Below, piece after piece: positions 310 to 3,841 of a stretch of DNA of 64,000 nt (within the stretch, counting starts at the first letter, position 1; every line of letters starts with the position of its first letter). The DNA comes from Spirosoma pollinicola (lineage in GTDB: Bacteria > Bacteroidota > Bacteroidia > Cytophagales > Spirosomataceae). Where the stretch lies: assembly GCF_002831565.1 (NCBI RefSeq), contig NZ_CP025096.1, positions 4,140,501 through 4,204,500 of the forward strand, in the 5' to 3' direction. Under the pieces are notes generated by a model that was given only the letters and a program-made list of their open reading frames with translations, was not told the DNA's origin and made no database searches. Both the position numbers and the translations under genes were made by a program.

Positions 310-762
310 TCACGCCACCGCCTTAACAAACATACCCAGCCGCTCCCTCAGCAGATACCCACTCACATCGGTGCGGAGGGTGCCTTGCGAGTTGTAGGCC
401 TTTAATTCGGATGGAAGGGTGGCGTATTTGGCCAGCGCGTTGTACCAGGCACTGCGGTCCATGTAGGGGGCCAGCAGGATACGGGCCTGGCTCAACGCAC
501 GGTGCTGCCGGGGCGACCAGATCGGCCGATTCCGGTAAATAGCGCCGTGGCCTGTTAATAAATCAGGCAGAACCTGTGGCGGTGCAAGAGGAACCAGTTC
601 GGCTAATAAATAAAGACCCAGCTCCACATTGAGCAGCCGGTTGGCTACCATACCAGGTAGCGCATGCCGGAAGCGCAGCCGGGTCGCCAGTGGCTCCTGC
701 CAGTGAAGAAGACTGGCAAGGGCCGGGCGGGAAACACGGGGGGTGGAGAGAAGAGTGTTCAT
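310..762 (-). CDS. Unknown small protein, paralogue of 2052-2447
   Basis: I do not recognise a family. The 150-residue protein shares a common core with the product of 2052-2447: a NVELGLYLLAELVPLAPP-like segment (DLELGLFLLQQVHPTAPP in the other), then SPRQHRALSQARILLAP versus SPKQKKYLNRGRLLLAH, a W-containing segment, and a C-terminal RLGMFVKA / RLGVLRKM. There is no signal peptide or clear membrane segment; the conserved block looks helical. The two paralogues bracket the WGR-PARP gene on the same strand, so the pair probably belongs to that system. A hairpin at 905-945 separates this gene from the operon, so it is likely transcribed on its own. Function unknown. Confidence 0.65.
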   Translation of the reverse strand: MNTLLSTPRVSRPALASLLHWQEPLATRLRFRHALPGMVANRLLNVELGLYLLAELVPLAPPQVLPDLLTGHGAIYRNRPIWSPRQHRALSQARILLAPYMDRSAWYNALAKYATLPSELKAYNSQGTLRTDVSGYLLRERLGMFVKAVA

Positions 763-904
763 CGTATTTGTTGTTTATCGTTCTTGTTGAATCAAATTTA
801 CTACTACAAGAACGTAACCTTTTTACGTTGTTCTCTTTTTTGAAAAAAAAGTTTTAACTATTTCTACGATTTACTTTCTCATTGAATTTCACCGAAAACA
901 AAAA

Positions 905-945
905 CAGCAGCAGGCAGAAACGGATACAACGTCTGCCTACTGCTG
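905..945 (-). terminator. Terminator after the WGR-PARP operon
   Basis: CAGCAGCAGGCAGA (905-918) pairs with TCTGCCTACTGCTG (932-945) with one mismatch. Reading the minus strand it is followed by a T-rich tract. It ends the operon that stops at 973. Confidence 0.7.
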
Positions 946-972
946 CCAGAAAAAGTACGATAAACAACTGCA

Positions 973-1221
973 TTACTGCAGGGAGAATGCCGCCCGTGGA
1001 AAATGAAAAACGCGGTGCTTCCCATTGTCATCAATAGTCCAGTTCTCCCACAGGCTGATCACAAACAGCCATTGCGAAACATCGGCTTGGCGGGCTTCGT
1101 AGCCACGCTGACGCAGGGCTTTTTTTACGGCCAGTGTGGTTGTACTGCCTTCGGCCAGAATAAGCGTCGTGGCAATAAAGCGCACGACCAGCGGGTCCAG
1201 TTTTTTGCGTTGTAACTCCAT
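973..1221 (-). CDS. Small winged-helix-like protein, last gene of the PARP operon
   Basis: An 82-residue protein. Residues about 25-70 (TTTLAVKKALRQRGYEAR, then DVSQWLFVISLWENW, then NGKHRVFHFP) read as a compact helix-helix-strand-strand pattern like a winged helix, but I cannot name a family. The start codon lies one base after the stop of the WGR-PARP gene (TAA-G-ATG), so translation is almost certainly coupled and the two products are likely made together. It could be a DNA-binding partner of the PARP protein; that is inference from position and pattern only. Confidence 0.6.
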   Translation of the reverse strand: MELQRKKLDPLVVRFIATTLILAEGSTTTLAVKKALRQRGYEARQADVSQWLFVISLWENWTIDDNGKHRVFHFPRAAFSLQ

Positions 1222-1222
1222 C

Positions 1223-2038
1223 TTATGCCTTTATTTTGACAATGTATCGAAGCGTACATTGTGCCGGGTTGTAAACAATGAACTCGTTTTTTTGCAGGCC
1301 CGAACGCTGGCGCACAAACACTGAATCATACTGGGTGTCTTTGTATTTGAGTACGTCGGATGTTAGCTGTACATGCCTGATTTCCTGTTGAGAAAGCTCA
1401 AGCTGTTCGCCAACGTGTACTTCATAAATGGCCAGATAATCCTCATTCGCCTGTCCTTGTTGAGATGCATCCTCGGGCGAGTGGCTGAACTGGTCGACAA
1501 AGTGAATGCCGTATCCGGACGATTTACCTGTATTGATGGCGTTTGCCGGGCTGAGCGTCGGATTTGTTCTTAACATGGACAGCCAGTTGTCACGGCGATT
1601 GCTGTGCCACAGCGCTACCGTCTTGCGATTTTTCTGTTGCCGAACATAGGTATTGAAAACGGCGTCGTTAACAGCATGCCGTACCATGAAAGCGCTTTCC
1701 AGCGTATTGGCATCGGCGCCCATCATACGTTTAATGAGCGACAGGACGTGGTTATCGGCTACTGACTCAATCGTCAGCTTCATGCTTTCGAGCGGTGTCA
1801 CTGGTTTGGCGTCGTCATACGAATTGGCTTGGTCTGTATATCCCTTTGCCTTCTTTTCGCGGACTTTTCGATCCCAATGCGCTATGGGATGTGTGGCCTT
1901 GCTCCGAAAACCACCCACACGGCCATAGTACACATCGAACGTGGCATTTTCTTTTTCCCGCATTTCGTAGTATTTGTTATTGTTTTCGGCGGTCATCATC
2001 ATGAGTTTCATCGTTCGCAGAGTTTGAATCGGTGGCAT
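1223..2038 (-). CDS. WGR-domain PARP-like protein with an H-H-E active site
   Basis: The 271-residue protein joins a WGR domain (about residues 18-70; the signature reads YGRVGG at 38-43) to a PARP catalytic domain (about 140-271). Visible PARP signatures are LWHSN with His145, GYGIHFVD at 175-182, and KNEFIVYNPAQ with Glu252, followed by the usual strand TLRYIVKIK. WGR-PARP proteins bind broken DNA or RNA and transfer ADP-ribose from NAD+. Here the conserved Tyr of the H-Y-E triad is His179, and the Gly after the first His is Ser146, so activity may be changed or lost. It lies in the middle of a three-gene minus-strand operon, 13 bases after 2052-2447 and 1 base before 973-1221. Start at 2038 is chosen for length; an inner Met at residue 10 is possible. 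Confidence 0.85.
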   Translation of the reverse strand: MPPIQTLRTMKLMMMTAENNNKYYEMREKENATFDVYYGRVGGFRSKATHPIAHWDRKVREKKAKGYTDQANSYDDAKPVTPLESMKLTIESVADNHVLSLIKRMMGADANTLESAFMVRHAVNDAVFNTYVRQQKNRKTVALWHSNRRDNWLSMLRTNPTLSPANAINTGKSSGYGIHFVDQFSHSPEDASQQGQANEDYLAIYEVHVGEQLELSQQEIRHVQLTSDVLKYKDTQYDSVFVRQRSGLQKNEFIVYNPAQCTLRYIVKIKA

Positions 2039-2051
2039 TGGATATGATAGA

Positions 2052-2447
2052 TCAGGCTAGCATTTTGCGTAGAACGCCAAGCCGGTTTCGGGAGAAACCA
2101 ACGGTTTTCTCGGAGAAATGACTGCAATCGCGGCTGAGGTCGAAAGCTAACCGATGATTGGGCGCAGCTGCGTAGGCATCCAGAAGTGTCTGCCAGTGGA
2201 GGTTATTGGCAAAATGAGCCAGTAAAAGCCGCCCTCTGTTCAGGTATTTTTTTTGTTTGGGCGATAGGCTGGGCCAGCGGACATCGTCGGGCCGAAGCAG
2301 GGCCGGGAGTGCCGTTGGTGGAGCCGTGGGGTGTACCTGCTGAAGCAGAAACAGACCCAGTTCGAGGTCAACTAATTGCCGGGTCGAGAGCGACGGGCGG
2401 GGCGTATAAGCCGGTATGTTTGAGTCGGGACGCTGTGTATGAGTCAT
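2052..2447 (-). CDS. Unknown small protein, first gene of the PARP operon
   Basis: A 131-residue protein of no family I know, paralogous to the product of 310-762 (shared DLELGLFLLQQ, TAPPTALPALL, SPKQKKYLNRGRLLLAHF and C-terminal NRLGVLRKMLA). The N-terminal 25 residues are proline-rich and likely disordered. No membrane segment or signal peptide. It begins the minus-strand operon and faces the WYL regulator gene across a 209-bp region that holds a large inverted repeat. Duplication of this protein around the WGR-PARP gene suggests it is a partner or substrate of the system; this is inference. Confidence 0.65.
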   Translation of the reverse strand: MTHTQRPDSNIPAYTPRPSLSTRQLVDLELGLFLLQQVHPTAPPTALPALLRPDDVRWPSLSPKQKKYLNRGRLLLAHFANNLHWQTLLDAYAAAPNHRLAFDLSRDCSHFSEKTVGFSRNRLGVLRKMLA

Positions 2448-2553
2448 GATATAGTCTATGTAATGTCCGATTCAAAAGTATATCCCTCAAAACGTAATCT
2501 ATTTACGGTCTTCTTTTTATTTTGAAAAATATTTTTGTTGCTTTGTCTAACTA

Positions 2554-2639
2554 AACACAGAGGAGATGGAGACTTACACGGAGACCACGAAGGCGATTCT
2601 CTTCGTGTACTTTGTGTGAATCTCCATCTCCTCTGTGTT
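2554..2639. repeat. Large imperfect inverted repeat between the PARP operon and the WYL gene
   Basis: Arms of about 40 bp: the outer 19 bp (AACACAGAGGAGATGGAGA and its complement) match perfectly, the inner halves less well. It ends 17 bases before the WYL start codon. It could be a transcription terminator or attenuator, an operator, or a dispersed palindromic repeat; a related but different-sequence palindrome follows the WYL gene at 3750-3832. Confidence 0.8.
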
Positions 2640-2656
2640 GAAAAAAAATAATTTCC

Positions 2657-3742
2657 ATGCCCATAACCCGCTCCGCTTTTCAACGCTACCGGCTCATTGA
2701 CGAGATCATCAGCCGATACCCCCGCCGGTATTCCAAACAGCGGCTGTTCGAACTCTGCCAGGACAAGTGCGGCATTCGGTCGATTTCGTCGCTCGAAAAA
2801 GACATTCAGCGGATGCGCGAAGACCACGACGCACCCATCGAATACGATAAACGAGCCAACGGCTACTATTACAGCAATCCGCAGTTTCGGTTGCTGAACC
2901 TGATGCTGGCCCCCGAGGACATGGAAGCCCTCGACTACGCCCGCGAGGTGCTGGCTGCTACGCAGGGCGCTACCGTTGCCGATGAGTTGACCAATGCGTT
3001 ACAAAAGGTGCGGCAGAGTCTGGATATCATCCATGAGGTACGAAGCGACGACCGGGGAGGGCCTGCGGCTTCGCGCCGGATTGTGTATGTCGAAGAGAAA
3101 ATTCTGGGCGGTAATCGTCAGTTTGTGCCGATACTCATCCGGGCCGTAAACCAGAGCCGACAGGTGGCGTTTCGGTATTTGAAATATGAAGAGGTCGTGC
3201 CGGTAATGACTGGCAAGGGGGCGAAAAAAGCCAAAACAGCTAGTCTGGCGGCCATACAGGCCGATCGCCCTAAACTGCGCATTCTGCACCCGATTTTATT
3301 GCGGGAAGTCGCCGATAGCTGGTACGTAATTGGGTACGATGCTGTGAGCGGGGGCGAAAAAACCTTTGCACTCGACCGTATGAGCGAACTCGAACTGCTG
3401 GATGATCCCTGCGATGTACCGCCCACTATTCTCGCCAATGTGAGCGACCTCTTCGAGCATATCTACGGCATTACCGATAGCCACGGGCCGGTAGAAGATA
3501 TTGTCCTGTCGTTTTCGCCTTTGTTTGGTCAATATGTGAAAGCCAAACCAATTCACCAAACGCAGGAAGTGTTGAGCGACACCGACACCGAATGCGTCGT
3601 GCGACTGCGTCTGGCCCCCAACCGCGATCTGCTTATGCACCTGCGCAGTTACGGCGAACACCTGACGGTGCTGGAACCTGCCAGTCTGGTGCAGGAAATA
3701 AAGGCCTCCTTGTCGGCTACATTGGGCCGCTATTCTTCATAA
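2657..3742 (+). CDS. WYL-domain transcriptional regulator
   Basis: 361 residues. The N-terminal part (about 1-60, with SKQRLFELCQDKCGIRSISSLEKDIQRMRE) is the winged HTH of this family. The WYL domain spans about 158-248, with AFRYLKYE, SWYVIGYD (221-228) and FALDRM (237-242). WYL proteins are regulators that sense nucleic-acid or nucleotide ligands and often control DNA-damage, CRISPR or phage-defence genes. It is divergent from the WGR-PARP operon, which makes that operon the likely target. No other regulator lies nearby. Length is normal for the family, and no break is seen. Confidence 0.9.
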   Translation: MPITRSAFQRYRLIDEIISRYPRRYSKQRLFELCQDKCGIRSISSLEKDIQRMREDHDAPIEYDKRANGYYYSNPQFRLLNLMLAPEDMEALDYAREVLAATQGATVADELTNALQKVRQSLDIIHEVRSDDRGGPAASRRIVYVEEKILGGNRQFVPILIRAVNQSRQVAFRYLKYEEVVPVMTGKGAKKAKTASLAAIQADRPKLRILHPILLREVADSWYVIGYDAVSGGEKTFALDRMSELELLDDPCDVPPTILANVSDLFEHIYGITDSHGPVEDIVLSFSPLFGQYVKAKPIHQTQEVLSDTDTECVVRLRLAPNRDLLMHLRSYGEHLTVLEPASLVQEIKASLSATLGRYSS

Positions 3743-3749
3743 AATAAAT

Positions 3750-3832
3750 GGCACACGGATCATACGGATCTAGCGGATTCGTGCAGATTTAGATCGGTGA
3801 GAATCCATTTAATCCGTATGATCTGCGTGCTA
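3750..3832. repeat. Imperfect inverted repeat after the WYL gene
   Basis: Two arms of about 40 bp containing GGATCATACGGAT and its complement ATCCGTATGATC. It lies just past the WYL stop and overlaps the region before the YdeI-like gene. It may act as a bidirectional terminator; such palindromes are often dispersed in genomes of this group. Confidence 0.7.
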
Positions 3833-3841
3833 TATTTGCCC

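Follow-up and report, generated by a model that had tools for sequence, protein, structure and literature searches.

A WYL-linked operon with paired solo Z proteins and a reduced PARP in Spirosoma, probable home of a stress regulon that takes in defence systems

Transcriptional regulators of the WYL family have been described in two guises, as activators of damage genes and as repressors of single defence systems. Among the activators, single-stranded DNA (ssDNA) in the WYL domain turns on DriD and PafBC (PMC12340889; PMC11804915), and SiwR, a divergent activator, responds to zeocin by way of a 19-bp palindrome that lies upstream of the -10 element (PMC10693628). The WYL proteins tied to defence, BrxR and CapW, act instead as repressors (PMC9122601, PMC10693628), so that the WYL protein considered here may regulate in either direction. 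A separate body of work concerns the pPIWI_RE triad, in which, according to the part of PMC3702460 drawn on here, Z is a mostly helical domain that precedes the DinG helicase at its N-terminal end; that part of the source holds no description of solo Z proteins.

These themes meet in a locus of Spirosoma pollinicola, which lies in a stretch of 64,000 nucleotides that we refer to as the window, within a genome of 8.79 Mb on a single contig. The analysis of locus, operator and regulon was computational throughout. All five open reading frames were confirmed (Table 1), and they stand as the original prediction had them: on the minus strand A2, a WGR-PARP, a winged-helix protein (WH), a terminator and A1, with a divergent WYL gene. 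A single nucleotide separates the PARP stop from the WH start, and a strong terminator, consisting of a hairpin and a T-run, ends the A2-PARP-WH unit; A1 has its own operator and promoter, and is therefore a second transcription unit. The original prediction included neither this second unit, nor the reduced form of the PARP, nor the Wadjet system described below. Long imperfect palindromes, possibly interspersed repeats, flank the WYL gene (window 2551-2640 and 3740-3840).

Table 1. Features of the locus, with positions counted in the window.
Feature	Position	Strand	Description and support
A1 (A')	310-762	-	solo pPIWI_RE_Z protein, 150 aa, own transcription unit; PF18155 E 2.8e-16
A1 -7 promoter box TAAATTTG	793..800	-	TTG at +13 from the 23-bp site
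A1 operator ACGTAAAAAGGTTACGT	812..828	-	perfect palindrome arms; genome pattern search; kept upstream of A1 in relatives
Terminator hairpin downstream of WH	~903-947	-	-27.8 kcal/mol, z -5.2, then T-run
WH	973-1221	-	82-aa winged-helix protein; AF2 model and PDB fold matches
Reduced WGR-PARP	1223-2038	-	271 aa, without helical regulatory domain, H-H-E for H-Y-E; PF00644, alignment
A2 (A)	2052-2447	-	solo pPIWI_RE_Z protein, 131 aa, first gene of the operon; PF18155 E 2.4e-12
A2 -7 promoter box TACTTTTG	2473..2480	-	spacing identical to that of the A1 box
A2 operator CCGTAAATAGATTACGT	2492..2508	-	between divergent A2 and WYL; 1 mismatch against the palindrome; kept in relatives
WYL regulator	2657-3742	+	HTH-WYL-WCX, 361 aa; PF13280/PF25583

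The five-gene arrangement is far above chance, for all or part of it recurs in related genomes at 55 home loci; these are the neighbourhoods, out of 61, that carry A2 and/or A1, nearly all adjoining a WYL gene (the widely separated A2 and A1 of Rudanella-type genomes were counted as two loci). The named carriers belong to seven genera: Spirosoma, Fibrisoma, Larkinella, Rudanella, Arsenicibacter, Fibrella and Fibrivirga. At most Spirosoma loci the gene set sits beside the same DUF1905 and SDR genes, and Z genes, usually paired, were present in 34 of the 34 genomes of the genus examined. The neighbours on whose conservation the original prediction had staked its proposal are thus retained, but their distribution is not the patchy horizontal spread expected of an anti-phage system; near-universal in Spirosoma and fixed in chromosomal site, the locus is better regarded as a resident stress operon than as a mobile defence system. 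An A1 gene was also seen on a contig labelled Flavobacterium sp. SUN052 (L151), outside the usual family. In PADLOC-DB no catalogued system matches the whole operon, the matches being to Z, to generic WYL and to partial unrelated models, and the open-access papers searched contain no description of the operon with its regulon.

Within this neighbourhood the PARP is kept at 31 of the 51 loci placed on the core tree, with at least 11 changes between presence and absence. The A proteins had been seen as flanking a PARP core, and these counts overturn that view: WYL, A2 and A1 are the core, and the PARP is dispensable and the member most often lost. The topology of the PARP tree is for the most part that of the core tree, as fits repeated loss. 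At home loci WH occurs without PARP, and PARP never without WH; in outgroups the partner of PARP is a protein bearing WH, in one case fused to WGR, and A is missing. We also considered a general rule by which A2 and A1 bracket a swappable effector, and rejected it: where the PARP is missing nothing replaces it, and PARP-less loci have between A2 and A1 only ankyrin-repeat genes, placed between WH and A1 (L095, L128), or, in Rudanella, a stretch of 18 kb.

What is new here is an operator palindrome and its spacing from the promoter. The Bacteroidota -7 box has the form TAnnTTTG. The palindrome, AACGTAAAAAGATTACGTT, lies upstream of both A2 and A1, and every home locus has it close to one or both of these genes. 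The TTTG of the -7 box follows at one fixed spacing: all 89 distinct home sites have the TTG at +13, although these sites are related by descent and do not represent 89 independent events. The remote sites provide the stronger evidence because the genes downstream of them are unrelated: TTG is at +13 in 20 of the 31 intergenic ones and at +12 in 6 more (26/31), as against +12 to +14 in 2 of 12 intragenic operator matches and a background frequency of 1.9% per position. Perfect matches to ACGTAAN5TTACGT number three in the 8.79 Mb genome (before A1, before jetA of a Wadjet system and at 8784803). The regulon within this genome is small: there are five strict operator matches, of which those at A2, A1 and jetA fit the promoter geometry, the one at 8784803 does not, and that at 1712534 is intragenic. 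At 8784803 (L199:6804) the perfect operator is followed by a box of another sequence, TATCTTCA, and a similar arrangement occurs at L216 (G031). Among 200 genomes of the family the strict operator was found in 48, all in operon-bearing genera save one (G059), which carries this PARP and has an assembly that is 66% complete. The operator occupies the position of the -33 element, in a geometry that resembles SiwR and would also be compatible with repression. LexA, as part of an SOS response, was considered as the binder and rejected, there being no SOS gene behind the sites examined.

The WYL protein is the likelier binder of the palindrome than WH, since operators persist at loci without WH. 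Pfam identifies its WYL and WCX domains, and an N-terminal HTH was read from the sequence only; together these make up the HTH-WYL-WCX architecture of the DriD, PafBC and SiwR activators. By sequence, its closest relatives in the PDB are WYL/DeoR-type regulators, which we take to be the DriD entries, and then PafBC. R208, Y223 and R241 are invariant, as is an alanine, A238, at the place of one of two arginines that PafB requires for ssDNA, presumably R211. With the first arginine of the pair replaced, the ligand may therefore differ and is less certain. The analysis shows the conservation of the genes, the geometry of operator and promoter, the genes of the regulon, and the reduction of the PARP together with its purifying selection; we infer the pairing of WYL protein and operator, the inducer, activation in preference to repression, and the functions of all the proteins.

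Beyond the home operon, operator sites precede genes of defence systems. A complete Wadjet type I, JetA1-JetB1-JetC1-JetD1, is encoded past the window edge, 15 kb from A1 (L001:3870-10648; genome from 4125869), and its operator stands 49 bp before the jetA start codon. Relatives of jetA occur in eight Spirosoma genomes, in seven of them about 12-26 kb from the home operon and in the eighth on another contig. Operator and -7 box precede jetA in the three Wadjets of close lineage (G000, G009, G016), one of which is on a contig other than that of the home operon; no operator was found at the divergent Wadjets. S. fluviale has a true pPIWI_RE triad 2.3 kb away from A1, with an operator 38 bp upstream of its first gene, and the divergent triads of two other species have no operator. 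Further genes behind operator sites encode glyoxalase/bleomycin-resistance-like (Ble), GNAT, DUF6624, ankyrin, RNase_T exonuclease and RibD_C proteins. It is probable that the WYL protein of the operon also activates these neighbouring systems against plasmids and phages. The original prediction of a WYL-controlled operon linked to stress or defence is supported, and the check that it proposed for a defence island finds one, with Wadjet type I and a methyltransferase and HerA nearby.

Several details of these surroundings may be recorded. The HerA-like helicase of the S. pollinicola genome, which lies beside an N6/N4 methyltransferase, is split into two ORFs (L001:15165-17273), and a 684-aa homologue is intact in G011 (L033:14652-16706). 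In G016, jetA is broken into two reading frames (L246/L252), and in Larkinella punicea a Wadjet-like jetA-B-C lies directly downstream of the WYL gene and co-directional with it (L115). One exonuclease example, L232, has phage-like surroundings on inspection, and the remote operator at L227 precedes an ankyrin gene.

The A proteins had been described as paralogues of unknown kind. Paralogues they are, with 31% identity, but both match PF18155, pPIWI_RE_Z, above the Pfam cut-off and so belong to a named domain family. The AF2 model of A1 is all-helical (pLDDT 82), and its fold has no match in the PDB or BFVD. In the S. pollinicola genome PF18155 was found only at A1 and A2, which means that there is no Z-DinG protein, and no relative of the pPIWI_RE REase was found there. 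Our guess is that A1 and A2 work together, probably as paired Z modules that bind nucleic acid or a partner. A phage origin of Z is possible; one IMG/VR contig carries a solo Z, and the fold of A1, as noted, is unmatched. The Z family also travels with prophages: solo Z genes at L124, L126 and L168 lie beside YopX or DUF3799 genes or, in one case, on the IMG/VR contig, and at L124 and L126 the solo A2-like proteins adjoin phage-type genes.

The PARP matches PF00644 (E 3.6e-15) and on this basis carries an ART catalytic domain. Its WGR is weak in Pfam (18.5 bits against a cut-off of 22), and its YGRVG motif aligns with the WGR of PARP2. Full-length relatives, of about 450 aa, consist of WGR, helical domain (HD) and ART, and their profile can be aligned to human PARP1/2 over HD and ART. 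We aligned the window copy with 32 relatives and followed the nicotinamide/catalytic site residues listed in PMC5966428. The residues H, G, Y, S, Y and E are kept in 29 of 29 HD-bearing PARPs, and three pocket residues are lost in all four HD-less ones. The copies of the window and G011 keep the WGR motif but not the HD, and so depart from the architecture of the DNA-dependent PARP1-3; they have G to S/T, Y to H and Y to D. In the window copy three of the five nicotinamide-site residues are gone (G to S, Y to H, Y to D), leaving the catalytic residues as H-H-E. The copies of G024 and G028 are without both WGR and HD, and have G to D and Y to R. A single origin of the four reduced PARPs was ruled out (one-clade AU p 9e-9), and reduction happened twice, in independent lineages (window/G011; G024/G028). 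The core tree hints that the reduced allele has recombined between window and G011, but the AU test does not reject the simpler history (p 0.087).

That the window PARP is under constraint follows from its dN/dS against G011 of 0.086 (270 codons, dS 0.82), close to the values of 0.044-0.076 for full-length pairs; the G024-G028 pair gives 0.27. It is probably, to judge from its residues and rates, a repurposed or weakened enzyme under purifying selection, and more likely acts in binding or as a transferase of weak or altered activity. The suggestion that the WGR-PARP senses broken nucleic acid is accordingly reasonable for the full-length relatives and doubtful for the window copy, which has lost HD and active-site residues. 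In human PARP1, removal of the helical domain de-represses the enzyme; pocket decay in parallel with loss of the HD would, we infer, disarm a PARP that was de-repressed. As for the reversal of ADP-ribosylation, the PARG profile PF10021 gave zero matches anywhere, controls included, and is thus uninformative, while no macrodomain was found in the S. pollinicola genome and its occurrence elsewhere was uncorrelated with PARP. A contig scan with the window PARP as sole query found no relative, and a candidate PARP remnant at L090 scores only 20 bits and was given no weight. Cellulophaga phages phi4:1 and phi17:2 encode PARP relatives. The AF2 model of WH is a winged helix (pLDDT 90.9), and in the PDB it most resembles winged-helix regulators and Z-alpha domains (TM about 0.6).

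Our main contention, which we hold to be probable, is that this is the home operon of a WYL genotoxic-stress regulon of the DriD/SiwR type with defence systems wired into it. Damage or invading DNA would yield ssDNA or a related nucleic-acid signal, and the WYL protein would bind this signal and sit on AACGTAA(N5)TTACGTT. The palindrome would stand in for the -33 element there, its spacing to the -7 box being fixed, and the protein would activate transcription as DriD and SiwR do. Activation would switch on A2-PARP-WH, separately A1, and in S. pollinicola the Wadjet operon; in other species it would extend to a pPIWI_RE triad and to Ble-like, GNAT and exonuclease genes. At breaks, full-length PARPs would use WGR-HD-ART to ADP-ribosylate their targets; WH is a probable DNA-binding adaptor of the PARP. 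A more ambitious version is put forward only tentatively: that a lineage-wide WYL master regulator couples damage sensing to defence, with the Z-pair/PARP operon as its core, that acquired Wadjet and pPIWI_RE systems gain the operator, and that HD-less PARPs lose the pocket and persist as pseudo-enzymes.

Other explanations account for part of these data. The operon might be a plain one for DNA repair or tolerance, its defence neighbours marking an integration hotspot and the jetA operator an incidental capture, and the WGR-PARP architecture, a regulon rich in Ble/GNAT-type resistance genes and the operator-less Wadjets of the same island would all be at home in such an account. We find it rather unlikely, however, given that the operator stands with a correctly spaced -7 box before jetA in three genomes, including the one where Wadjet and home operon are on different contigs, and before a pPIWI_RE triad as well. 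It is improbable, too, that we are dealing with a bona fide anti-phage system, in which the Z pair would sense invading nucleic acid, the PARP would be an NAD-consuming or ADP-ribosylating effector, and the WYL protein would be a repressor released by infection like CapW or BrxR; for while the Z domain derives from a defence triad, the island holds Wadjet and methyltransferase/HerA genes, and WYL repressors govern CBASS and BREX (PMC9122601, PMC10693628), the site is fixed and near-universal in the genus, the PARP is missing at 20 of 51 loci with no replacement effector, and the pocket of the window copy is damaged.

Narrower doubts attach to single components. Loss of the HD and of pocket residues, and repeated loss of the gene elsewhere, are what one would expect if the window PARP were a decaying pseudogene inside an otherwise working operon, but constraint near that of full-length pairs, at the divergence separating it from G011, and a frame open in both make this quite unlikely. 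Least of all do we expect the palindrome to be bound by WH, or by another global regulator, instead of the WYL protein: a winged-helix protein is indeed encoded in the operon, yet operators persist without WH, and with WYL adjacent, at L091, L099-L101, L107, L108, L115, L116, L119 and L121, and the operator is absent from family genomes without the operon.

If the stress-regulon reading is true, a promoter-locked operator common to the PARP/Z operon, Wadjet, pPIWI_RE and Ble-like genes would show a resident stress switch recruiting incoming defence systems. Solo Z domains and bacterial PARPs would gain a testable regulatory context, and the model predicts an inducible Wadjet. The natural HD-less PARPs offer a further point of interest, in that pocket decay parallels the known autoinhibition by the HD.

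Among described systems, SiwR-dinS of Mycobacterium (PMC10693628) shares a divergent WYL activator, a palindrome just upstream of the core promoter, a connection to genotoxic stress and zeocin and, in some species, glyoxalase-like neighbours; it differs in phylum and targets, is without PARP and Z proteins, and its regulon as reported includes no defence systems. DriD of Caulobacter (PMC12340889) is the closest solved relative, with the same HTH-WYL-WCX architecture, activation of a divergent operon and sites whose distance to the -10 is constant, but its operator sequence is unrelated, its targets are other ones, and it has an arginine where A238 stands here. The three-gene pPIWI_RE system (PMC3702460) shares the Z domain family PF18155, which occurs here as paired solo proteins, with no PIWI, helicase or REase gene in the operon. 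Bacterial WGR-PARPs of Cytophagales clade 1.1 (PMC5966428) share WGR and ART and, with the full-length relatives, the helical domain, whereas the window copy is without that domain and altered in its nicotinamide site. The Wadjet type I is an ordinary JetABCD, in which only the promoter is notable. Finally, BrxR and CapW (PMC9122601) are likewise WYL regulators tied to defence islands; these repress one adjacent system, whereas here there is a regulon of multiple sites with an activator-like geometry.
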